From IMG/VR virus record IMGVR_UViG_3300032245_000091, positions 1 to 23,872 of that record: a stretch of DNA of 23,872 nucleotides. One strand, written 5' to 3'. This DNA comes from a virus. A program made the position numbers and the translations under genes. The notes below the pieces were generated by a model. It ran no database searches. It saw only the letters and a list, made by a program, of their open reading frames with translations, and was not told the origin of the DNA. This document shows, in pieces, positions 881-22,895 of this stretch. Numbering within the stretch: the first letter of the stretch is position 1; each line of letters opens with the position of its first letter.

Positions 881-1056
881 TAGCAGCCAAACCTCATGTT
901 AAACCATGTAAATCTTTGCAACTCTTGTTTTAGATCTTCTTGAAAAGAAAAGTTTAATTGATCTTTTAATGTTTCCAAAGCTTGTAGAACTTGTCTTTGA
1001 TTATCCGGAGAATATTCTTGACTTGGTTCTGGTATGTACGTTGTAATTTTTGCCAT
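880..1056 (-). CDS. Small 58-aa protein between tail genes
   Basis: The ORF runs from ATG 1054-1056 to TAA 880-882. It is coupled at both ends by one-base TAATG overlaps: its start overlaps the stop of the tail-hub gene and its stop overlaps the start of the next virion gene. That arrangement, with no wasted bases, is the main evidence that it is real. The product begins MAKITTYIPEPSQEYSPDNQ. The middle is rich in Gln, Leu and Glu and could form one amphipathic helix, with an aromatic/basic end (WFNMRFGC). No known domain is recognised. Position suggests a small tail or virion component. Confidence 0.7.
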   Translation of the reverse strand: MAKITTYIPEPSQEYSPDNQRQVLQALETLKDQLNFSFQEDLKQELQRFTWFNMRFGC

Positions 1057-2969
1057 TATCTTCTTCCATCAGGTTGAATATCTACTCTAAATAATCCATA
1101 TCTCCAGTTTTCATCTACAGATTCGTTTTCAACTTTAATACTCATTAATCTATTTCTTGCTCTAGTATCTATCTTAGTTGTAGATGAAGTTACAGTGTAA
1201 GGTCCCAACATCTGACTATTTTGTGTTTGAGATGGATAATCTCTTAACAATAAAGTTACTTTAGCATTTCCATCAAGTATTTTAAAGTCGGGTATAAATC
1301 TATTTATCTTCATTAAATACTGACCATCTCCTTCTATATCTAAGTCAAAGTCTCCAGATTCAACATATGCAGGAATAGCTGTTTTAACTCCAGTATAACT
1401 TACTTCATTAACACCTGTCTCATGTTCGTAATATGTACATGCCCCATAAGTATTTGTTACACCATTAATAGTTGGGAATGTTGGTACTGCAGTTGATATC
1501 CATTTTGTAGCATATGGTTTATCGTATGTTTGAGCATCTGAATAAGTTGTTCTAGTTAAAGACATTGTAGTCCAAGTATTTTCAACAAAGTTATACACTA
1601 CTGATGCATTGATTGCTGATGAATTTGCAGTTGGATAAAACCAAATTACTTCATTATATAAACTATTATGAGAACCATAGACAATATCTGCAGAATTATA
1701 GTTTATACCAGGATTATCTCCACCAGTTGTAAATACATAATCTTCAACCAATGATGGCAATTGTTTAACAGTACCGTCGTATACAAAGAATCCTCCACCA
1801 AATCCCATCCAGAATATTGCACCTTGTGCAAAGACTATTGAATGTTGACCAATACATCCGCAGTTTGTACCGACCTGTCTTATTGAAAAAACAAATGGGG
1901 GACCAACAAATTGCATAACATAAGCTGCTTGATCCGTTAAAATAAATATATAATCCTTACCTTGTACAGCTCCAACGATATAGTTTCCTGTGTCAAGTCT
2001 AAAGGTACCTGCAGTATTTGTTGCAGTAGGTGCCCAAGTATTATAATCTTCTTGGTTTGAAAATCTTATAAACATTGGATCTTGAGAAGATGCAGTTCCA
2101 ATCGTAGTTTCTGTTCCAAGTAATATTAAATGTCTATCTCTATCAGATACGATTGAACAAACAGATTTAGTTGGAGCTCCTGCTATAATAGATGCTCTAG
2201 TAGTTAAAGCTCCACCCACTGATGGATCCCATGAATATGTTTTTCCATCTTTAACAGTTGAAACTAATATTTGTCCAAAGTTATCAAACGACCAATTTGC
2301 TGCCGATAGTATTACTGTTGGAGAAGTTGATGCTGATCCCCAAGCAACTGTTCCCCAGGTAGATGTTCCCCATCCATAACCATAAGTCTGATCAATAGGA
2401 CCTATAAATATATATGGGGTTGTAATTAAGGAACCACCGCCAGTGACACCTGTCCCTGTTTCAGTTACTGGCATTGTAATTCTAAATGTTGAAGAAGATG
2501 GAACCGATATTACTTCAAAAGTATTAGTTGTAAAATTAGCTGATGTAAAACTTGTAGTAGTAGGACCTGGTGTTGTAACTGAAGTAAATATAATATAATC
2601 ACCAACTGCAAGTCCATGAGCTGCTTTATTAATTGTAACAGTTCTAGATCCTGTTGTAGATGTATAAGTGCATCCAGTTATAGCTGTACCAAGTGGCGTA
2701 ATGTCATAAAACGCACCTTCAAAATAAATAGCTAATACTTTATTTGTACCAATCGCTGCATATTTATTACCACTTAAATCTGTCCATGTATGCTGTGATC
2801 TTGCAACACCTGCTAATGTTTTAGGTAATAGTTCTTGCCAACCACCTATTTTTTCAGGGTATCCATAACGAAAACGAATAAAATCACCATCAATCCACTG
2901 ACCTTCTGCAGCGGTCGCTGTGTCTTGTTTGTTAAATCCAGCTTTTATTGGTATTTTTTTTAAAGGCAT
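1056..2969 (-). CDS. Tail hub / gp10-like stabilisation protein
   Basis: A 637-aa protein starting MPLKKIPIKAGFNKQDTATA. The opening (IKAGFNKQDT, then WIDGDFIRFRYGYPEKIGGW at about residues 25-44) resembles P22 gp10-like packaged-DNA stabilisation or tail-hub proteins of short-tailed phages. The body is Gly/Thr/Ser-rich and beta-like. Residues around 118-126 (AAHGLAVGDY) match a small module common in phage tail proteins. Residues about 195-213 contain WGTSTWGTVAWG, a repeated Trp-Gly motif shared with the N-terminus of the repeat protein at 9121-9882. No good Shine-Dalgarno lies upstream of the start, although a TATAAT is present at 2978-2983. It sits just beyond the AT-rich cassette and returns to the composition of the structural genes. 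Tail-hub assignment is moderately sure. Confidence 0.65.
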   Translation of the reverse strand: MPLKKIPIKAGFNKQDTATAAEGQWIDGDFIRFRYGYPEKIGGWQELLPKTLAGVARSQHTWTDLSGNKYAAIGTNKVLAIYFEGAFYDITPLGTAITGCTYTSTTGSRTVTINKAAHGLAVGDYIIFTSVTTPGPTTTSFTSANFTTNTFEVISVPSSSTFRITMPVTETGTGVTGGGSLITTPYIFIGPIDQTYGYGWGTSTWGTVAWGSASTSPTVILSAANWSFDNFGQILVSTVKDGKTYSWDPSVGGALTTRASIIAGAPTKSVCSIVSDRDRHLILLGTETTIGTASSQDPMFIRFSNQEDYNTWAPTATNTAGTFRLDTGNYIVGAVQGKDYIFILTDQAAYVMQFVGPPFVFSIRQVGTNCGCIGQHSIVFAQGAIFWMGFGGGFFVYDGTVKQLPSLVEDYVFTTGGDNPGINYNSADIVYGSHNSLYNEVIWFYPTANSSAINASVVYNFVENTWTTMSLTRTTYSDAQTYDKPYATKWISTAVPTFPTINGVTNTYGACTYYEHETGVNEVSYTGVKTAIPAYVESGDFDLDIEGDGQYLMKINRFIPDFKILDGNAKVTLLLRDYPSQTQNSQMLGPYTVTSSTTKIDTRARNRLMSIKVENESVDENWRYGLFRVDIQPDGRR

Positions 2970-3008: not shown

Positions 3009-3362
3009 TTAAAGATTTTGTTTTAAACTTTGTCTAATCCTAGTTGCTGATATTTCTTGTATTTCTTTTGATAATACAATTTCTTCTATTTTATATCCTA
3101 CATCTCTACCATAGCATATATTAGTTACATTTGGAACTTTAATAACTTCAAATTTACCTACATAATCTTTAAGTTTATCTTCAATACGCTTTTTAATTTC
3201 ATCAAATTGAAATGGATTGTTTTCTGATTCTGGCATTGATCTAACCATAATAATAACTTGGCCAGTCTTCTTTAATATCTCTTTAAATAAAGCTAAATGA
3301 CCATCATGGAATGGTTGCCATCTTCCTAACATTTGTGCTGTTGGTTTACTGTAGTCTATCAT
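3009..3362 (-). CDS. HxGH-type nucleotidyltransferase
   Basis: A 117-aa single-domain protein. Residues 13-22 read GRWQPFHDGH, the ATP-binding HxGH motif of the cytidylyltransferase/NadM-like superfamily, and residues 104-110 (ISATRIR) match its C-terminal ISxTxxR motif. Both catalytic signatures are therefore present in a compact enzyme, shorter than typical NMN adenylyltransferases of about 170 residues. Family knowledge predicts transfer of a nucleotidyl group from an NTP to a small phosphorylated or anionic substrate; the substrate cannot be read from the sequence. AAGGAG lies four bases before ATG. The gene overlaps the APS-kinase-like gene by 17 nt. Adjacency to kinase and sulfotransferase genes raises, but does not prove, an ATP-sulfurylase-like role; NAD salvage or a sugar-nucleotide role are alternatives. 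Confidence 0.8.
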   Translation of the reverse strand: MIDYSKPTAQMLGRWQPFHDGHLALFKEILKKTGQVIIMVRSMPESENNPFQFDEIKKRIEDKLKDYVGKFEVIKVPNVTNICYGRDVGYKIEEIVLSKEIQEISATRIRQSLKQNL

Positions 3363-3735
3363 GTATCTCCTTTATTATGTTATTGTAATTAAAATTTTTT
3401 ATCTCAAAGTCTACTTTTTTAGGTTTTTCAAATACTTTATTAGTATCTTCAAATCTTCCTTTATCAATCGTATTCATCCAAATCTTCATGTCATAGAAAG
3501 ATCTATAAGATTCAAATGGACAAACAAAGTCTACAACAACATTATTAACGGCAAGATCACACATAGTCATCATACGGTTAGCTTGTCGCTTACGACCATT
3601 TTCTGTAAAATCCCAATCTTCAAATAGCTTTCTAATGTCATCAGCGTTGAAGTGTGGTATTTTTTTACCTTCTATTAATTTTTTAGCAAATGTAGTTTTG
3701 CCAGACCCTGGTAATCCAAATATTAATATCTTCAT
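3346..3735 (-). CDS. APS-kinase-like P-loop kinase (short)
   Basis: A 129-aa P-loop protein. Walker A is GLPGSGKT at residues 7-14. Residues 30-35 (NADDIR) and the following WDFTENGRKRQANR match the substrate loop of adenylylsulfate kinases, whose pattern is D-G-D-N-x-R followed by a D/E-R-x-E-N-x-R stretch. VDFVCPFESYR (68-78) corresponds to the SPYR region. The protein is much shorter than a typical CysC of about 200 aa: residues after about 90 look divergent and the usual C-terminal helices are missing or reduced. Family knowledge predicts ATP-dependent phosphorylation of adenosine 5'-phosphosulfate to PAPS, but a different small substrate is possible. The start overlaps the stop of the sulfotransferase-like gene by four bases (ATGA). 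Confidence 0.72.
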   Translation of the reverse strand: MKILIFGLPGSGKTTFAKKLIEGKKIPHFNADDIRKLFEDWDFTENGRKRQANRMMTMCDLAVNNVVVDFVCPFESYRSFYDMKIWMNTIDKGRFEDTNKVFEKPKKVDFEIKNFNYNNIIKEIHDRLQ

Positions 3736-4448
3736 ATGAAATATTTTAAATTGCTAAATTCTTTTTCAACTTTATTAACTATATTATTAATTTCTTCATT
3801 ATTAAATGTCCATTGTTTTTCCTCGTTAAATAATTTTTTTCTATGTTCAGTTACATTTTTTAAATTTATATATTCATTGTTATCATTTAAACCAGCGTCT
3901 TTTACATGATAATTTATATTTACTGGCAAATATTCAATTTCAAAAAAAGAACATATTTCTTTTAATTTACTTTCTTTATTTAAAATAAAATCATTGTATT
4001 CTAAAAAATAAACATTTTCAGAATCTAAAATCCACAACAATCTATCTATCCAAAAATGTGCTTGTGCTTCTAATATACTACAGTTATTCAATTTTTTATT
4101 TTTAAAATGTTGATTAATATTCATTGCTTTTAGTATTTTAATATTTGAATCAAAATAAAATTCTTTTGTTTGATAATTATTATCTATTTTATATAAATGA
4201 TCTTTTAATTTTCTATAAATAAATACTTTTTTATTTTTTATTACTTTTGATAAAAAACATAATCCACTAGAAAATTTTATTAAGATATTTTTTTTAAACT
4301 TTTCTTTCATATATTTTTCAATATCTTTTTCATTCAAATCAATACAATTAAAAGTACACTGCGGCTCCGTTAATGTTGGAATTGAATTACTTAATAAAGA
4401 AGCAAGTAGGGTTGAACCACAAAAAGAAGTATGAAATATACTAAACAT
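3732..4448 (-). CDS. Sulfotransferase-like P-loop protein
   Basis: A 238-aa protein. Its N-terminus carries HTSFCGSTLLASLL at residues 6-19, which fits the 5'-phosphosulfate-binding loop of bacterial sulfotransferase-family proteins (S/C-G-S/T-T-L-L, with Gly and Ser/Thr binding the PAPS phosphate). The centre (AQAHFWIDRLLWIL, about 126-139) and ENVYFLEYNDFILN (about 142-155) look like the helical and strand elements of that fold. The rest is Lys/Asn/Ile-rich, reflecting the extreme A+T content. Family knowledge predicts transfer of a sulfuryl group from PAPS to an acceptor hydroxyl or amine. The acceptor is unknown; a host-surface glycan or virion protein is inference. It overlaps the upstream oxygenase gene by eight bases and the downstream kinase gene by four. 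Confidence 0.68.
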   Translation of the reverse strand: MFSIFHTSFCGSTLLASLLSNSIPTLTEPQCTFNCIDLNEKDIEKYMKEKFKKNILIKFSSGLCFLSKVIKNKKVFIYRKLKDHLYKIDNNYQTKEFYFDSNIKILKAMNINQHFKNKKLNNCSILEAQAHFWIDRLLWILDSENVYFLEYNDFILNKESKLKEICSFFEIEYLPVNINYHVKDAGLNDNNEYINLKNVTEHRKKLFNEEKQWTFNNEEINNIVNKVEKEFSNLKYFI

Positions 4449-4965
4449 TAGTATTAGAAATACTGTGAAAATATCCTGTAAATAAATATCTGTCCTTATT
4501 ATCTGGGCAAGGTTGACCTTTATGAATATGAGTAAATGAACAAGGAAAAATAGTTAATCTTCCTTTTTTAGTATATATAATATTATTATTAAAAAATTCA
4601 GTCCCACATTTATTATTTGATAAATAAATAGTTAAACCTAAAACTCTATATGGATCTCTATAACTATGCTCCCAATGCCAATTTTCAAAATAATTTCCAG
4701 GTTTAAAATATTTAAATTTTAACTCCTTTAATTCCATTTTTCCAAATAAATATTTTAATTCTGTGAATTTTTCTAAATATTTATAATAACAATTTAGTAT
4801 TTTAGAGACCATAAAATTAATCTTATCGTATTCTTCAGGTTGAATGTGATAGTAATTTATTCCATTAAATATTTGTTTATTAACTTTTTCTTTAAATAAA
4901 TTTATTATTTTATCGCATTCATCTTCGGATAATACATCATCTTCTACCAAGATATGATCTAACAC
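4441..4965 (-). CDS. 2OG-Fe(II) oxygenase (HxE-type metal site)
   Basis: A 174-aa double-stranded beta-helix oxygenase. The metal ligands appear as H97-W-E99 in NWHWEH, with a distal His at 146 or 148 (FTHIHKG) and the 2-oxoglutarate-binding Arg at 159 (DRYLFTGYF). KKGRLTIFPCSFTH (133-146) is typical of marine phage oxygenases of this class. The acidic ligand is Glu rather than the more usual Asp. The start is GTG, overlapping the stop of the preceding gene as TAGTG, with AAGGA just upstream. The substrate is unknown; the family hydroxylates or demethylates proteins, nucleic acids and small molecules. It is the third of three such enzymes in the cassette and lies immediately before the sulfotransferase-like gene. 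Confidence 0.85.
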   Translation of the reverse strand: MLDHILVEDDVLSEDECDKIINLFKEKVNKQIFNGINYYHIQPEEYDKINFMVSKILNCYYKYLEKFTELKYLFGKMELKELKFKYFKPGNYFENWHWEHSYRDPYRVLGLTIYLSNNKCGTEFFNNNIIYTKKGRLTIFPCSFTHIHKGQPCPDNKDRYLFTGYFHSISNTNV

Positions 4966-5186
4966 TATTTTCCTTCTATTTTTGTAAATTCGTTTGTTTC
5001 TTTATCTTTAATTTTTTTATCAAAATAAGCATGCCAGTCTCCGACTATTCTTATTAATGTATTTGAAAAATGTTTTAATGTTTCTGCTGGTAAATGTAAT
5101 TTTTTATTTTTTTTAATAATATTTATTTCCTGTTTAGAAAATTCTATATCACAGGATCCATCTTTTCCATATTGTTTAAATATCAT
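4965..5186 (-). CDS. Small orphan protein between oxygenase genes
   Basis: A 73-aa Lys-rich protein, not recognised. It contains YGKDGSCDIEFSKQEINIIK near the N-terminus and a middle HLPAETLKHFSNTLIRIVGD that looks helical. There is no signal peptide or membrane segment. The start overlaps the stop of the upstream oxygenase gene by four bases (ATGA), and its stop overlaps the GTG start of the next oxygenase, so it is embedded in a coupled translational chain. The position suggests a partner or accessory of the oxygenases; no function can be assigned. Confidence 0.65.
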   Translation of the reverse strand: MIFKQYGKDGSCDIEFSKQEINIIKKNKKLHLPAETLKHFSNTLIRIVGDWHAYFDKKIKDKETNEFTKIEGK

Positions 5187-5821
5187 ACTTCAGATCCTTC
5201 ATAACTTGGTAATAAATTATTATTTTTATAATGATCCATTAATGAATTTTTTAATTTATCATTTCTATATTTTTCATGTAAACCAATATCTGGTCTGCAG
5301 TCAAATTTCATATCTTTATATAATCCATTTTTATCAACATAATGTATAAAAACTTGACTATTCCAATCTCCGTTAAATTTTTCTCTCCAATGTAATACTT
5401 CACATCCAGAATATAACAAAGCATCTCCATCATTTAATTCGATCGGTGTACCATCAACAAATATAGGCCATTTTGTACCATCACTACCTATTTTAATAGT
5501 TAAACTTATCTCACAACTTGGTCTATCTCTATGTTTTTTTAAAGACGAACCATATGTATACATTCTCCAATAAGTATAAGTTGGAAATAGTTTTAATCCA
5601 CTTTCATTTTCTACCAAACTTGTTTTAATTTTTAAAATTGACTCCATTAAAGGATCATTAATAAAAAAAGTATCTCCATTAGGAGACATACGTATATCAA
5701 AAGAATTTATATTATTTCTGTGTCTATATACACAGTATTGATTTAATAATATTATTTCATCTTTTGATAAAAAATTATTAATTATTTTATATTTAAAATC
5801 TTTTTTAATTATACCGCCCAT
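5183..5821 (-). CDS. 2OG-Fe(II) oxygenase (HRD type)
   Basis: A 212-aa protein with a double-stranded beta-helix core. H97-R-D99 (KKHRDRPSCEISL) supplies the first two iron ligands and H144 (EVLHWREKF) the third. IELNDGDALLYSGCEVLHW (about 127-145) is the turn and strand before the distal His. The expected 2OG-anchoring Arg about ten residues after the distal His is not evident; NSQVFIHYV (154-162) occupies that place, so co-substrate binding may differ. The N-terminal 80 residues probably form a lid region. The target is unknown. It shares 13 bases with the upstream oxygenase gene and four with the downstream orphan gene. It differs clearly from both neighbouring oxygenases, so this is not a simple tandem duplication. 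Confidence 0.85.
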   Translation of the reverse strand: MGGIIKKDFKYKIINNFLSKDEIILLNQYCVYRHRNNINSFDIRMSPNGDTFFINDPLMESILKIKTSLVENESGLKLFPTYTYWRMYTYGSSLKKHRDRPSCEISLTIKIGSDGTKWPIFVDGTPIELNDGDALLYSGCEVLHWREKFNGDWNSQVFIHYVDKNGLYKDMKFDCRPDIGLHEKYRNDKLKNSLMDHYKNNNLLPSYEGSEV

Positions 5822-6384
5822 GATACTACTGAATACCTCGTTCCTTTTAAAACCGGTTTAACTGTATGTGGATACATAAAATTACTTGGCCATATTATAC
5901 ATCTATTTTTTTTAGCATCTATGTTTTTTTCTTCTGATCCATCTGGATTTCTAAAACACAGTTGACCTCCGCTATAATCATCATTTATCATTAAAATACA
6001 ACTTAATGTTCTTGGAGCATTTTTACAATGATCCGTATGCCAAGTATAAAACCCAGTGTTTTCATATTTTAAAACAGAGGGTGGTCCCAATGATTCAACT
6101 GATAAATCTAAAATTTTCAAATCTTGTCTATATTTATTTATCCCTTCCCAAAAAACATTACTTAAAAATTGTCCCCAATGTACGGAAGACATACTATCAC
6201 TAAGTATATCTAATGCTGACACGTAAGTCCTTCTTATATCAAAATCAACAACTCCAGCTGCTCCAGGATTGATTACTTTAGATTCTTCATATTTTAAATG
6301 ATTTTTACAAAAATCCAATAAATTATCAATAATATTATTTGGCAATATATTATCGTATACTTTTATTAAACTATTTATTTCCAT
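5809..6384 (-). CDS. Prolyl-hydroxylase-like 2OG-Fe(II) oxygenase
   Basis: The open frame extends to 6399, but that codon is TTG; the first ATG (6382-6384) is preferred, giving 191 aa. Ligands for Fe(II) are H116-T-D118 (WHTDHC) and H173 (YPHTV), with R183 (GTRYSVVSW) for the 2-oxoglutarate carboxylate. This complete HxD...H...R set, with GGQLCFRNPDGS between, is that of prolyl-4-hydroxylase-like enzymes. Family members hydroxylate proline in proteins or other substrates. It is transcribed in the same direction as, and two genes after, a fibre gene rich in Xaa-Pro-Gly, which makes that fibre a plausible substrate (inference). The start overlaps the preceding gene by 10 nt, and only a weak GGA-type ribosome site is seen. 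Confidence 0.85.
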   Translation of the reverse strand: MEINSLIKVYDNILPNNIIDNLLDFCKNHLKYEESKVINPGAAGVVDFDIRRTYVSALDILSDSMSSVHWGQFLSNVFWEGINKYRQDLKILDLSVESLGPPSVLKYENTGFYTWHTDHCKNAPRTLSCILMINDDYSGGQLCFRNPDGSEEKNIDAKKNRCIIWPSNFMYPHTVKPVLKGTRYSVVSWAV

Positions 6385-7130
6385 AATTTTTTTTTCCAAA
6401 ATAAATTTTTATACTTATGTAATAAATTAAACCCTTCATATTTCCAAATAGAATGTTTAATCTCTGATTCTTTTATTGGTTTTATAGACATTTTCCAATT
6501 ATCTCTTTTAAACGGTATTACTTGTACATATGGTGTTCCTTTTTTTATAGTATCTTCTAGCACAGGATATTTATCTCCATTAATTATTATTGGAAAATTT
6601 ATTTCAACTGGAAAAACATCTGTATCGACAATACCAGATATAATTGAAAATCTATCATCTGAATTATTTAAAGGAGGAACAAATAAACAAGAATATCCTC
6701 TTGGTGTTTTAATTCTCCATGGATTTAATATTTTATAAAAAGGTAAGTTTTTATTTTTATCAACAAAAGGACATTCTTTTCCACCCACCTGAGTAATGGG
6801 ATGAACATCGTTTCCATGATTTAAGTTTATTTTTTTTGAAATATTAAAAATAGAAAATTCATTCATAGCAAAAGTACTAAAAGAATCTTTTATATTTAAT
6901 TGTCCATTATATACATTATGTCTAATAAAAAAATCTTGAGGAATTTTTAATAAATATCCAGAAGTAAGTGTATCTAAAAATGGTATGCATCCTTTTATAG
7001 TTTTATTTAAAATAGTATGATCTAATTTTTTATACCATTCAGGTATATTAAGTTTAATTGGGATAGGAATATCTTGTTTTGTTTTAAAATATTCTTCATG
7101 GGTTGAAAACTCTATTTCTTTATCAAACAT
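6375..7130 (-). CDS. Conserved phage protein, DUF6065-like
   Basis: A 251-aa protein without a recognised catalytic motif. The N-terminal half has IPEWYKKL (about 29-36) followed by KGCIPFLDTLTSGYLLKIPQ (46-65). The C-terminal half has NPWRIKTPRGYSCLFVPPLN (about 136-155), then a GIVDTD...PVEINFPI strand pair and a KGTPYVQVIPF strand. This pattern resembles proteins I associate with DUF6065, possibly a cupin-like beta-barrel fold; that match is from memory and tentative. It is the second gene of the AT-rich cassette and lies upstream of the oxygenases. A 39-base AT-rich gap (7131-7169) separates it from the preceding gene, one of the few gaps in the cassette. Confidence 0.7.
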   Translation of the reverse strand: MFDKEIEFSTHEEYFKTKQDIPIPIKLNIPEWYKKLDHTILNKTIKGCIPFLDTLTSGYLLKIPQDFFIRHNVYNGQLNIKDSFSTFAMNEFSIFNISKKINLNHGNDVHPITQVGGKECPFVDKNKNLPFYKILNPWRIKTPRGYSCLFVPPLNNSDDRFSIISGIVDTDVFPVEINFPIIINGDKYPVLEDTIKKGTPYVQVIPFKRDNWKMSIKPIKESEIKHSIWKYEGFNLLHKYKNLFWKKKLWK

Positions 7131-7169
7131 ATTATAAACATACTACATTTTATATATACTTGTAAAGTA

Positions 7170-7766
7170 TTAAGGCAATTGTAATAATGAATAATATAAT
7201 AATGCATTATTTTTAAAATATCTTTCTAAAGAACAATTTCTTAACGTTAAAAAAGGTTCTTTTATCTTTTCTACTTGTATGCATATTTCTTTATCTTTTT
7301 CTACCCAAAAACCTGAACCAGGTTTTCCATTTTCAAGTGTATTTGGAATGAGAACCAATTCTTTTTCAATCTTTAATTCATTTTCAATAGTAGTTTCTTG
7401 AGTATCTACAATAACTTTTTTAAAATTTTTTAATTGTAAATTATAATCATTCCATCTTGAAAATAACACATGATTTTTATTATTTTTTAAAAAATTTGTA
7501 GTATGATAAATTAAAGAATCAACATACTCTATTAAATATTTTTTAGATGTAAAACCACTAATAACTTCTTTAAAATTTATATTTTCATTAACAATATTTA
7601 ATATTATTTTTTCATTTGTTTTTACTTTTTCAAAATCTTCTTGTGAACCCTCTTTTATTGTATAGACAGATGTATCTATATCTAAATTGTTTAAATCAGA
7701 TTGATTTTCCGCTATTTTATAAATAGGTTGTTCTTGATTATCTAAATTAAAAATAAAAAAAGCCAT
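7170..7766 (-). CDS. Unrecognised protein downstream of fibre gene (possible fibre accessory)
   Basis: A 198-aa protein starting MAFFIFNLDNQEQPIYKIAE. The N-terminus is beta-like, the middle is helical and Lys/Asn-rich (about 75-120), and the C-terminal third has ENGKPGSGFWVEKD followed by more helix. No catalytic motif, signal peptide or membrane segment is seen. Its ATG lies one base after the stop of the collagen-like fibre gene, which is the place where many tailed phages encode a fibre-assembly chaperone or fibre-tip protein. That role is inferred only from position. Its base composition matches the AT-rich cassette rather than the fibre gene. Confidence 0.7.
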   Translation of the reverse strand: MAFFIFNLDNQEQPIYKIAENQSDLNNLDIDTSVYTIKEGSQEDFEKVKTNEKIILNIVNENINFKEVISGFTSKKYLIEYVDSLIYHTTNFLKNNKNHVLFSRWNDYNLQLKNFKKVIVDTQETTIENELKIEKELVLIPNTLENGKPGSGFWVEKDKEICIQVEKIKEPFLTLRNCSLERYFKNNALLYYSLLQLP

Positions 7767-7767
7767 A

Positions 7768-9054
7768 TTAATTTCCTATGTTTTCATAAATAACTAAATA
7801 CCCAGCACCACCAGCTACACCTGGATTCCCTGCATTTCCAGGGCTTCCTGGATTCCCTGCATTTCCAGGTCTTCCACCTTGACCAGGACCACCACCAGCA
7901 CCACCCGTACCACCTGTACCACCAGCACCACCCGTACCACCCGTACCAGCATTACCAGCAGCTCCATAACCATCAACAACTAAAAACGTTCTGTTAGTTG
8001 CAGTAAATGTAGTTGCCTTAGGAGAATTTCCAGCGGTAACAGTTCCAGCAGCGTTTGCTGATCCTAAATTTGTTATTGTAGTATTTCCACCACCTCCACT
8101 AACTGAGTATGGCGCTGAAAAAGGAGCCGACACAGGAGAACTAAAAAATCCGTAACCACCAGCAGTTCCAGGATTTCCAGCTGTACCAGCATTACCTGCA
8201 GCACCGGGATTACCAGGATTTCCAGGATTACCAGTTTGACCAGGTTGATCTGGACCAGGACTTGGAGCACCTCCATTACCAGGATTTCCAGGGTTACCAG
8301 CAGCTCCAGAATTACCAGGATTACCGGCAGAACCTGCTCCACCACCTGCATACATTACACTTAATATACTTGTTGCTGCGGGATTTGCCGTATAAGTTCC
8401 ACTTGCAGGACCAACATAATTAACTTTTGGTACATATCCTCCTCCACCAGCAGCTCCGGATGATGCAGAAGTAATACGACCATCAGCATCTACTGTAATT
8501 GTAGCAGAAGTATAAGTCGCTGCAGTAACTCCAGTTGAAATCAATTGATTTGCCCCAACAGAATTTGCAGCTAATTTAGATTGTGTAATTGTTGAAGTTG
8601 TAATCTGAGCCGCCACGATTTGTCCTGATAGTGTAGAAAGATCTGTTACTCTAATATCTGTTCCATCAGCATATAAAATTTTAATTCCTTTATCTGTCGT
8701 AGTCCAAGTTATCCCTGTTCCAGTTGATGCATATTTAAATGTAACTGTAAATGCACCAGTTGTTCCATTAGATACTATCCATGTTTTTTTAATTCCATTT
8801 GGAACTGTTACGATTTGATTTCCTGTGATTGTCCCTGATAATTTAATGACGGCGTTTCTTGCAGTTGCTAATGCATTCTGTGTCATTACAAGAGCTGTTG
8901 TTTGAGCTCCACCTGCAATAGATATGTCTTGATATCCTGCGATTGCTTGCTGAACCACTACTAAATTTGTATTTGTAATTGCACCCCATGTACCAGCGTT
9001 TTCGCCAGTTGCCATTAATTGTATTGCTAGATCTGTAGTATATGTAGAAGCCAT
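7768..9054 (-). CDS. Tail fibre with collagen-like Gly-rich domain
   Basis: A 428-aa fibre protein. The N-terminus (MASTYTTDLAIQLMATGENA, then GTWGAITNTNL) is a conserved opening of marine phage tail fibres and probably anchors it to the tail. Residues about 30-230 are beta-rich. Residues about 236-301 and 360-418 are two Gly-rich tracts in Gly-Xaa-Yaa register with GNPGNPG units; I count 14 Xaa-Pro-Gly triplets, with Pro in the Yaa position. A non-repetitive segment (about 302-359) separates them, and a short tail GYLVIYENIGN ends the protein. The tracts could form a collagen-like triple helix or a polyglycine-II bundle as in phage S16 gp38. This is the likely receptor-binding fibre. AGGA precedes ATG, and a promoter-like sequence lies just upstream (9076-9103). 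Confidence 0.82.
   Translation of the reverse strand: MASTYTTDLAIQLMATGENAGTWGAITNTNLVVVQQAIAGYQDISIAGGAQTTALVMTQNALATARNAVIKLSGTITGNQIVTVPNGIKKTWIVSNGTTGAFTVTFKYASTGTGITWTTTDKGIKILYADGTDIRVTDLSTLSGQIVAAQITTSTITQSKLAANSVGANQLISTGVTAATYTSATITVDADGRITSASSGAAGGGGYVPKVNYVGPASGTYTANPAATSILSVMYAGGGAGSAGNPGNSGAAGNPGNPGNGGAPSPGPDQPGQTGNPGNPGNPGAAGNAGTAGNPGTAGGYGFFSSPVSAPFSAPYSVSGGGGNTTITNLGSANAAGTVTAGNSPKATTFTATNRTFLVVDGYGAAGNAGTGGTGGAGGTGGTGGAGGGPGQGGRPGNAGNPGSPGNAGNPGVAGGAGYLVIYENIGN
7800..7968 (-). repeat. Distal collagen-like coding repeat of the fibre
   Basis: Degenerate nine-base units encode Gly-Xaa-Yaa triplets near the fibre C-terminus. The tract starts with Gly-Gly-Thr and Gly-Gly-Ala units, then shifts to Pro-containing GNAGNPGSPGNAGNPG. 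Five Xaa-Pro-Gly sites fall here. The DNA repeats are imperfect but similar enough to permit slippage or recombination with the other tract at 8150-8349. Confidence 0.8.
8150..8349 (-). repeat. Proximal collagen-like coding repeat of the fibre
   Basis: Imperfect units of about nine bases (plus-strand CCAGGATTTCCAGGATTACC and variants) encode GNPGNPG-type triplets. Nine Xaa-Pro-Gly sites fall here. The Gly register breaks once, around GAPSPGPDQPGQTG. The repeats resemble those in 7800-7968. Confidence 0.8.
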
Positions 9055-16884: not shown

Positions 16885-16899
16885 GTTTATATATAGTGA
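16885..16899 (-). promoter_or_regulatory. Second TCACTATA motif, before the scaffold gene
   Basis: TCACTATATATAAAC on the minus strand differs at only two of 15 positions from the motif at 13286-13300 and sits 14 bases before the scaffold ATG. It overlaps the last codons of the GroES-like gene (His-Tyr-Ile-stop), so part of the match may be coding constraint. Confidence 0.25.
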
Positions 16900-17357
16900 A
16901 GTACATCTTCAGGATTTTTAATTGTCCCTAAGACTTCGTCGTCATTTAATAGACGAACTTCACCGCCTTCAATTGGAAGTCTTGAACCCGCATAACGAGC
17001 AAAGATCACCCAATCTTTTTCCTTGCACCAAGGGCCTGTTGGATATTTTTCTTTATCCAAATAAGCTAATGGTCCAATCTTTAAAACATAACCGCAATTA
17101 GTTGCGATCCTTGCTTTGTCTAAAGATTCTTGTGATATAATTAATCCACCTGCAGTTTTATCTTTAGGTGTAAATGGTAATACTAGTAACCTCCAACCAG
17201 ACGGTTGTGGTAAACTATCAATTAAAGATTCAGAAATATTTTCTGCTCTAATAGTTTTATCTTCAACTTTTTTATCTTCTTCTTTATACTTTTCCTCAAG
17301 ACCTAGATTTATCTTTGGTACTTCCTTTTCCGAGGTCAACAACGTTTCCTTTATCAT
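16887..17357 (-). CDS. GroES-like co-chaperonin
   Basis: A 156-aa protein from the preferred ATG at 17355-17357. The open frame begins at 17375, but the AAGGAG ribosome site lies between the two ATGs, eight bases before the second. After a Lys/Glu-rich N-terminal extension of about 45 residues comes a GroES-like core: PSGWRLLVLPF, a mobile-loop-like DKTAGGLIISQESL, GYVLKIGPLAYLDKEKYPTG, DWVIFARYAG and a terminal EVLGTIKNPEDVLHYI. The family caps host GroEL; phage versions (T4 gp31) help fold the capsid protein. Here it lies just before scaffold and capsid genes. The core is longer than a bacterial GroES of about 95 aa. Confidence 0.85.
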   Translation of the reverse strand: MIKETLLTSEKEVPKINLGLEEKYKEEDKKVEDKTIRAENISESLIDSLPQPSGWRLLVLPFTPKDKTAGGLIISQESLDKARIATNCGYVLKIGPLAYLDKEKYPTGPWCKEKDWVIFARYAGSRLPIEGGEVRLLNDDEVLGTIKNPEDVLHYI

Positions 17358-17547
17358 CTTTTCGCTCCTTTTCATTTAGCAGGTTAGAGATTTCCTGAAT
17401 TACTGTTTGATAGGCATTAGCCTGTCCTTGCATATACTTGTATTTCTCCATGTTGTCAACATTACCAGATATCATAGACTCACCAATTCCTTGGTATTGC
17501 TCTCTGATAAACTTTTGTAATTTACTTAAAAATACTACTGCGTCCAT
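17296..17547 (-). CDS. Small helical protein overlapping the GroES-like gene
   Basis: An 83-aa protein starting MDAVVFLSKLQKFIREQYQG. It looks mostly helical (KYKYMQGQANAYQTVIQEIS, about 36-55), with a charged end rich in Lys and Asp. AAAGGAGAAAGAA precedes the ATG, a strong ribosome site. Its last 62 bases overlap the GroES-like gene in another frame. No family is recognised. Similar-size helical proteins in this position can be head accessory proteins, but that is a guess. Confidence 0.65.
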   Translation of the reverse strand: MDAVVFLSKLQKFIREQYQGIGESMISGNVDNMEKYKYMQGQANAYQTVIQEISNLLNEKERKDDKGNVVDLGKGSTKDKSRS

Positions 17548-22064: not shown

Positions 22065-22167
22065 TTAATTTCTCCGAGTTTACTATCTTAACCTTATTAT
22101 ACGAAACATTCAAGCCCTGTGGGTTTGGTCCAGATTTAGGTGGTATAGTTCTTGTTAATCTTTTCAT
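22027..22167 (-). CDS. 46-aa ORF coupled to the portal gene
   Basis: The ORF begins at ATG 22165-22167, overlapping the stop of the upstream gene by one base (TAATG), and ends at TAG 22027-22029, inside the start of the portal gene. The product reads MKRLTRTIPPKSGPNPQGLN and continues with a basic tail. The KSGPNPQGLN section resembles small peptides I recall upstream of portals in marine phages. The last 12 codons overlap portal codons in another frame. Probably a short functional peptide or a coupling ORF; function unknown. Confidence 0.55.
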   Translation of the reverse strand: MKRLTRTIPPKSGPNPQGLNVSYNKVKIVNSEKLNGNNRQVTTKRS

Positions 22168-22895
22168 TAAACTGGTAATCCTAGATTAACTCTTAATCTT
22201 CTCATATACGCATCCATAGTTGGATTACCTGTATCAGTGTTATATGTTGGTGCATATTCTTGTATGGTTCCAATTCCACCACTAGATGGACTTTGGGTAT
22301 TTGTTTGAACTGAAGTATCTAATTGAGAGTAATCATCTGGAGCAGCAACTCCTTTTGAATAATTTGAATATGCTTTTTGTGCTAAATTATATCCAAGTCC
22401 TAAAGCTGGATTCATCATACCTAAAGCTGTAGCAACTGGATTATTAATTGCATTTTGAATTGATTGTTTTGCAAAACCAGTTAATGTATTTACAGCTCCT
22501 GTAACTCCTGTGTTTGCTGCCGCTGATGCTTCCGCTTCTGCTGCTGCATTTGGACCAATACCAAATCCTTCTTCTGCACCACCAAATGATCCTGGTGATT
22601 CTCCACCAACTCCGCCTGTTCCAGATTCTCCACCTGGACCCGATCCAGATCCTTCTCCACTTGTACTGTCTCCTGATCCCCCAACTCCTGCTGAATCTCC
22701 TGTGGAATCTCCTGCATCACCTGCAGAATCAGATCCTCCAGATCCGTCACCACCATCTCCACCATCTCCACCATCTTCAAATTTTTTTCTTTTAGTTTCG
22801 TTTAAAATATATTTTATTTCTTCTTCAGAAAGACCTAAACCTTTTAAATGTTTTGCAAAATTTTTATCGCTATAACTAGCCCTTTTATCAATCAT
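22167..22895 (-). CDS. Gly/Ser-rich acidic protein, function unknown
   Basis: A 242-aa protein. The first 40 residues are charged and helical (DKNFAKHLKGLGLSEEEIKY). Residues about 40-115 are a low-complexity Gly/Asp/Ser tract (repeated GGDGGDG, then GSGSGPGGESG), followed by an Ala-rich stretch AAAEAEASAAAN and a hydrophobic Ala/Asn/Gly region (AINNPVATALGMMNPALGLG, about 151-170). The C-terminus DAYMRRLRVNLGLPV is basic. No family is recognised. Its position between TerL and portal might suggest a small terminase, but it lacks an obvious DNA-binding motif; an ejected or head-internal protein is another guess. The ribosome site is weak. Confidence 0.65.
   Translation of the reverse strand: MIDKRASYSDKNFAKHLKGLGLSEEEIKYILNETKRKKFEDGGDGGDGGDGSGGSDSAGDAGDSTGDSAGVGGSGDSTSGEGSGSGPGGESGTGGVGGESPGSFGGAEEGFGIGPNAAAEAEASAAANTGVTGAVNTLTGFAKQSIQNAINNPVATALGMMNPALGLGYNLAQKAYSNYSKGVAAPDDYSQLDTSVQTNTQSPSSGGIGTIQEYAPTYNTDTGNPTMDAYMRRLRVNLGLPV

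Follow-up and report, generated by a model that had tools for sequence, protein, structure and literature searches.

Predicted prolyl-hydroxylase-type oxygenases encoded beside a glycine-rich tail-fibre tip in a marine HTVC023P-type phage

In pelagiphages of the HTVC023P type, the colocation of 2-oxoglutarate (2OG)-Fe(II) oxygenase genes with genes annotated as 'ferrochelatases' has already been published (PMC9599517), and the pair was taken as auxiliary metabolism involving a ferrochelatase. Here we describe a neighbouring gene pair of this kind in a phage of the same group, represented by the complete IMG/VR record IMGVR_UViG_3300032245_000091, a linear fragment of 23,872 bases (hereafter the window). 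By its model, the supposed ferrochelatase is here a second oxygenase, and both genes are linked to the interval that follows the tail fibre gene and to the type of fibre tip. The parts of this cassette can be identified, their order is conserved, their genes overlap and their presence depends on the type of distal tip. We tentatively propose that the predicted enzymes hydroxylate the fibre tip or a partner in its folding or assembly.

Other described systems resemble single parts of the locus. Tumour necrosis factor (TNF)-like strands that carry glycine-rich loops are found in gp24 of cyanophage Pam3 (7ypx), and gp38 of T-even phages (S16, 6F45) has Xaa-Pro-Gly motifs within a glycine-rich part; the tip encoded in the window is like both, but its Gly-Xaa-Yaa (GXY) loops are far longer. 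GXY tracts also occur in the fibres of Escherichia coli O157 prophages, where they are collagen domains without a preference of proline for the Yaa position (PMC3368898), whereas the tracts in the window are most likely glycine-rich tip loops and have proline only at Yaa, an unusual pattern given that report. Among enzymes, PHD2/EGLN1 is resembled by the first oxygenase (oxA) in profile match and in its HxD...H plus Arg residues, and the EF-Tu prolyl hydroxylase of Pseudomonas putida by the second (oxB) in fold, although oxB has Gln at the place of the Arg. The Pseudomonas enzyme (structures 4iw3/4j25) acts on EF-Tu. The viral collagen prolyl hydroxylase of PBCV-1 (5c5t) is a viral enzyme of prolyl-hydroxylase fold that is matched by the oxB model; however, it belongs to an algal virus rather than a phage, and its profile match to oxA is weak. 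That viral tail fibres may combine collagen with a prolyl hydroxylase has been raised earlier as a possibility (PMC9301287), and the openly licensed literature, covered mostly at the level of titles and abstracts, yielded no report of hydroxylated phage fibres.

The oxygenase cassette beside the fibre

The window derives from a marine phage with a podovirus tail fibre. Terminase, portal, head and tail genes follow in order along it, its type is that of pelagiphage HTVC023P, and HTVC023P is also the closest isolate for the fibre. The features needed for the argument, including three GXY tracts, several open reading frames (ORFs) and a structural gene that serves as a boundary, are as follows.

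7768-9054, minus strand: tail fibre, 428 amino acids (phrog_31104; pelagiphage tail protein HTVC023P gp69)
8635-9054, minus strand: fibre N-terminal domain (residues 1-140), common to fibres with very different distal ends
7771-8517, minus strand: fibre tip (residues 180-428), predicted TNF-like and glycine-rich domain (AlphaFold2 model; VIA-align to Pam3 gp24)
8263-8343, minus strand: GXY tract 1 (residues 238-264), 9 triplets
8143-8241, minus strand: GXY tract 2 (residues 272-304), 11 triplets
7795-7965, minus strand: GXY tract 3 (residues 364-420), 19 triplets, which extends into the last beta-strand
7170-7766, minus strand: small ORF directly after the fibre, its family present in part of the relatives
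6375-7130, minus strand: DUF6065-like protein (phrog_7084), overlapping oxA by 10 bases
5809-6384, minus strand: oxA, prolyl-hydroxylase-like 2OG-Fe(II) oxygenase, 191 amino acids (H116/D118/H173/R183; PF13640)
5183-5821, minus strand: oxB, predicted second oxygenase of prolyl-hydroxylase fold (invariant HxD...H; AlphaFold2 model; Foldseek)
4965-5186, minus strand: small conserved cassette ORF, 73 amino acids
4441-4965, minus strand: oxC, third 2OG-Fe(II) oxygenase (phrog_61 type), PF13640 at 27.9 bits, just above the cut-off
1056-2969, minus strand: virion structural protein (phrog_3287), which closes the fibre interval in relatives and was used as its boundary

To judge by both its profile and its HxD...H iron triad, oxA belongs to the 2OG-Fe(II) oxygenase superfamily PF13640 (68.5 bits, where the cut-off is 27). 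Across 25 relatives H116, D118 and H173 are invariant and R183 is nearly so. An earlier reading of the window from its letters alone, with no database searches (the sequence-only reading), had placed an oxygenase with these four residues at 5809-6384, exactly as found here, and had suggested that it may act as a collagen-type prolyl 4-hydroxylase. Among PDB entries, the oxA profile is nearest to PHD2 (1e-10) and prolyl 3-hydroxylase (5e-9), with a far weaker match to 5c5t (E 0.004). In collagen prolyl 4-hydroxylases the 2OG ligand is a Lys, instead of which oxA has Arg183. On these three grounds we do not assign oxA to the collagen-type enzymes.

Because the oxB profile found no match among PDB sequences, even at E 5, the structure of oxB was modelled. 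The AlphaFold2 model (predicted local distance difference test, pLDDT, 90) has the EF-Tu prolyl hydroxylase 4iw3/4j25 as its best structural match in Foldseek (E 2e-8), with E values of about 1e-8 to 1e-7 for 4iw3/4j25/6t8m, and it also matches Dictyostelium PHD, PHD2 and the PBCV-1 enzyme. H97, D99 and H144 are invariant in the family alignment, while the position at which the 2OG-binding Arg is expected holds a nearly invariant Gln156, with an invariant Arg146 nearby. Thus, oxB models as an oxygenase with a double-stranded beta-helix prolyl-hydroxylase fold and HxD...H residues. It is nonetheless placed in PHROGs named ferrochelatase (phrog_2954, phrog_3531), and its HTVC023P relative, gp67, carries that name in GenBank. 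None of 19 oxB members matched a ferrochelatase Pfam model, and given the fold of the model we reject a real ferrochelatase; the label in pelagiphages and cyanophages seems to be a mistake that has spread through databases and into one paper. In cyanophages, oxB is fused to oxA. A similar case of naming may be noted between the small ORF and the structural protein of other loci (L083:8258-9254 and related ones), where genes called 'DNA endonuclease V' (phrog_274, phrog_2297) have HxD and H motifs that make them look like additional 2OG oxygenases.

We collected 81 cassette loci, 80 of which were found with oxA, so that the presence of oxA is given by construction. oxB is present in 79/81, DUF6065 in 68/81 and the fibre in 66/81, and the oxA proteins of relatives are 34-48% identical to that of the window. 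The gene order in the loci fetched with oxA is tail gene, fibre (either one ORF or an N-terminal ORF with a separate glycine-rich tip ORF), sometimes an ORF of the 7170 type, DUF6065, oxA, oxB, small ORF, further cargo and structural protein. The DUF6065 assignment itself is a weak one by Pfam (PF19541 matched by 11/16 members, best 1.3e-4). In the window, the genes from DUF6065 to a cytidylyltransferase-like gene overlap by 1 to 17 bases. The genomic link between oxygenase and fibre noted by the sequence-only reading is therefore real and conserved across relatives; its 'two genes downstream' was nearly right, two genes (7170-7766 and 6375-7130) intervening. The fibre, which is one ORF in the window, is split in L017, L022, L035, L063 and others into an N-terminal ORF of ~226 amino acids and a separate glycine-rich tip ORF. 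Elsewhere, in cyanophage S-SCSM1 (L089:762-9784), a short tail fibre gene whose product has Pro-rich repeats of the RQPRNFR type (L089:3961-5226) has oxygenase genes on both sides.

The fold of the tip and its Xaa-Pro-Gly motifs

The fibre had been described from its sequence as collagen-like, and oxA was suggested to hydroxylate its Yaa prolines and so stabilise a collagen triple helix. Several features invite this idea. The 14 Xaa-Pro-Gly sites were counted correctly, and the two tracts first noticed, better counted as three, hold 13 prolines at Yaa and none at Xaa (p = 0.0002), in agreement with the position claimed. The longest tract is longer than expected by chance: it has 19 triplets, and none of 20,000 shuffled tips gave more than 11. 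Proline is also enriched before glycine across tips (187 observed versus 127.5 expected, 1.47-fold). However, the Pfam Collagen model PF01391 scores the fibre at 16.5 bits, below its cut-off of 27.2.

The structure predicted for the tip also points away from collagen. In an alignment of 40 tips, the window's included, common segments alternate with glycine-rich stretches that vary in length; the window's tracts sit in these stretches, and tracts 1 and 2 are mostly insertions relative to the other 39. From this alignment, AlphaFold2 gave a single-chain model of moderate confidence (mean pLDDT 69; predicted template modelling score, pTM, 0.64; GXY regions near 50). Its best solved match is Pam3 gp24 (7ypx; VIA-align Z 14.1, 2.5 A, 160 residues, model positions 26-249), followed by the Bxb1 tail tip and, more weakly, by the glycine-rich domains of ALK and LTK (Z about 7.7). 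The Pfam family Gly_rich_2 (PF21722) is matched by the relatives L021, L121 and HTVC023P gp70, and the window's fibre does not match it. The GXY tracts are most likely expanded glycine-rich loops between the beta-strands of a TNF-like, glycine-rich receptor-binding tip, and the long ones may locally form some other structure. On the model, the Pam3 fold match and the alignment, which presents the tracts as loop expansions, we reject a collagen stalk.

The sequence-only reading had named as evidence against itself relatives that regularly keep the oxygenase without a collagen-like fibre, and such relatives exist. oxA is kept with glycine-rich tips of mostly 3-8 triplets; L006 and L007 retain oxA and oxB with zero Xaa-Pro-Gly in fibre or tip; and the enzyme also accompanies collar tips, where 9/28 loci with an oxygenase are without the motif. 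Conversely, motifs such as GNPG and APG occur in the gp38 tips of Straboviridae. In eight of these phages with gp38 or gp38-like proteins (S16 and seven others), whose genomes have no PF13640 match, 19/45 prolines lie in Xaa-Pro-Gly, compared with 173/531 in 39 relatives. Since the motif is at least as frequent in these tips, we no longer take its enrichment to indicate hydroxylation. Only two loci were obtained when viral contigs were scanned with gp38 as the seed.

Tip type and the presence of the cassette

The fibre N-terminal domain is common to many distal types; three scans that used it as seed produced 182 new loci, and 62 loci with a complete interval from the fibre to the next structural gene remained after removal of repeats. 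This measure was chosen after the first results had been seen, and it replaced a plain distance window. An oxygenase lies in the interval at 33/35 loci with glycine-rich tips, at 15/15 with collar tips (PF07484), at the one locus with tandem tip-like ORFs (1/1), at 1/3 unclassed loci, and at 0/8 with long one-piece fibres, which share the N-terminal family and have complete intervals of up to 4.4 kb. The contrast between glycine-rich and long one-piece fibres has a Fisher p-value of 3e-7, for loci that are related by descent. PF13640 genes are present in the complete isolate genomes of HTVC023P, which has a glycine-rich tip, and HTVC027P, which has a collar tip, and none were found in Roseobacter phage CRP-901 (complete genome; long fibre of the same N-terminal family) or in ct7L0027. 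On a tree of fibre N-termini the glycine-rich state must have been gained or lost at least 15 times, although the well-supported branches provide only four independent pairs, about 3/4 concordant and none discordant. Overall, the presence of the cassette depends on the type of distal tip, with the qualifications as to ancestry and measure that are weighed below.

Neighbouring genes and possible substrates

Further genes lie in and beyond the interval. Overlapping cytidylyltransferase-like, APS-kinase-like and sulfotransferase-like genes at 3009-4448 are possibly a set for 3'-phosphoadenosine-5'-phosphosulfate (PAPS) and sulfation. In L126, close copies of the first two stand beside different tips and adjoin a clear sulfotransferase (PF00685, 1e-12). 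A GroES-like co-chaperonin is encoded among the head genes (16887-17375; phrog_3188), and a gene between portal and terminase (22167-22895) encodes a protein with a Gly/Asp-rich stretch of the GGDGGDG type. A promoter scan of the region gave promoter-like sites that were not clearly above those in shuffled sequence.

Our preferred reading, which we hold to be plausible but somewhat short of probable, is that the cassette serves the tip. The podovirus fibre would end in a glycine-rich receptor-binding tip whose glycine-rich loops have expanded into GXY repeats. The adjoining DUF6065-oxA-oxB-small ORF cassette would provide two prolyl-hydroxylase-type enzymes, one recognised by profile and one by model, to which the window adds a third oxygenase. 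Presumably made together with the late virion proteins, these enzymes would hydroxylate the tip itself or a partner with which it folds or assembles inside the infected cell, and the hydroxylated tip would then fold, or bind its receptor, properly. Proline in Xaa-Pro-Gly is a possible target residue that is not specially indicated.

Several observations weigh against this proposal. With the plain distance window, the p-value for the contrast to long and unclassed fibres is 4e-12 at 5 kb but rises to 0.065 at 7.5 kb and to 0.22 at 8.5 kb, since oxygenases lie at greater distances in loci that have other tandem tip-like ORFs. The sequences are related, and the independent pairs give p-values of only 0.125-0.5; shared ancestry therefore weakens the dependence on tip type. 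The glycine-rich gp38 tips of T-even phages occur in genomes without a PF13640 match, so such tips need no hydroxylation as a rule. For the fused oxB-oxA gene of cyanophage ACG-2014f, no annotated tail gene lies within 8 kb. Finally, the oxB family is widespread in bacteria and in other contexts, and its substrates therefore need not be fibres; the bacterial neighbours of oxB revealed no shared context that names a substrate.

A serious rival, which we nevertheless judge rather unlikely, is that the oxygenases hydroxylate a host protein or alter a receptor molecule on the surface and are co-inherited with the matching tip as a host-range module. Such enzymes would explain the same pattern, in that presence follows tip type and not GXY content, and this explanation fits the bacterial spread of oxB relatives, the EF-Tu prolyl hydroxylase as best structural match of oxB, and the sulfotransferase- and APS-kinase-like genes in the same gene string. 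However, no host target is indicated; phage genes directed at the host are often early ones, and this string adjoins the tail genes. As to timing, the text of a transcript study of HTVC027P (PMC12753301) does not state when the oxygenase gene peaks.

Alternatively, auxiliary genes could simply insert in the interval after the fibre, so that the oxygenases would be metabolic cargo and their dependence on tip type a product of shared ancestry. The slot does vary in content, with other genes of various kinds in it, the APS kinase/cytidylyltransferase pair is found again in L126 next to different tips, and branch-wise support for the link to the tip is not significant. Against this, the core DUF6065-oxA-oxB order has been kept across the divergence seen in oxA, and fibres of the same N-terminal family with long one-piece distal ends lack oxygenases in their complete intervals; we consider mere cargo improbable. 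The collagen model, for all its Yaa prolines and the affinity of oxA to prolyl hydroxylases, is very improbable given tracts that model as tip loops and relatives that keep the enzyme with few triplets or no Xaa-Pro-Gly.

The oxygenases occur with only some kinds of tip, and hydroxylation of the fibre is therefore worth testing. Tying these enzymes to the fibre tip offers a concrete, testable substrate, and explaining the 'ferrochelatase' partner as a second oxygenase makes an old annotation puzzle testable as well. If tips are indeed hydroxylated, phage adsorption would be under a new level of control, one that needs the O2, iron and 2-oxoglutarate of the host.

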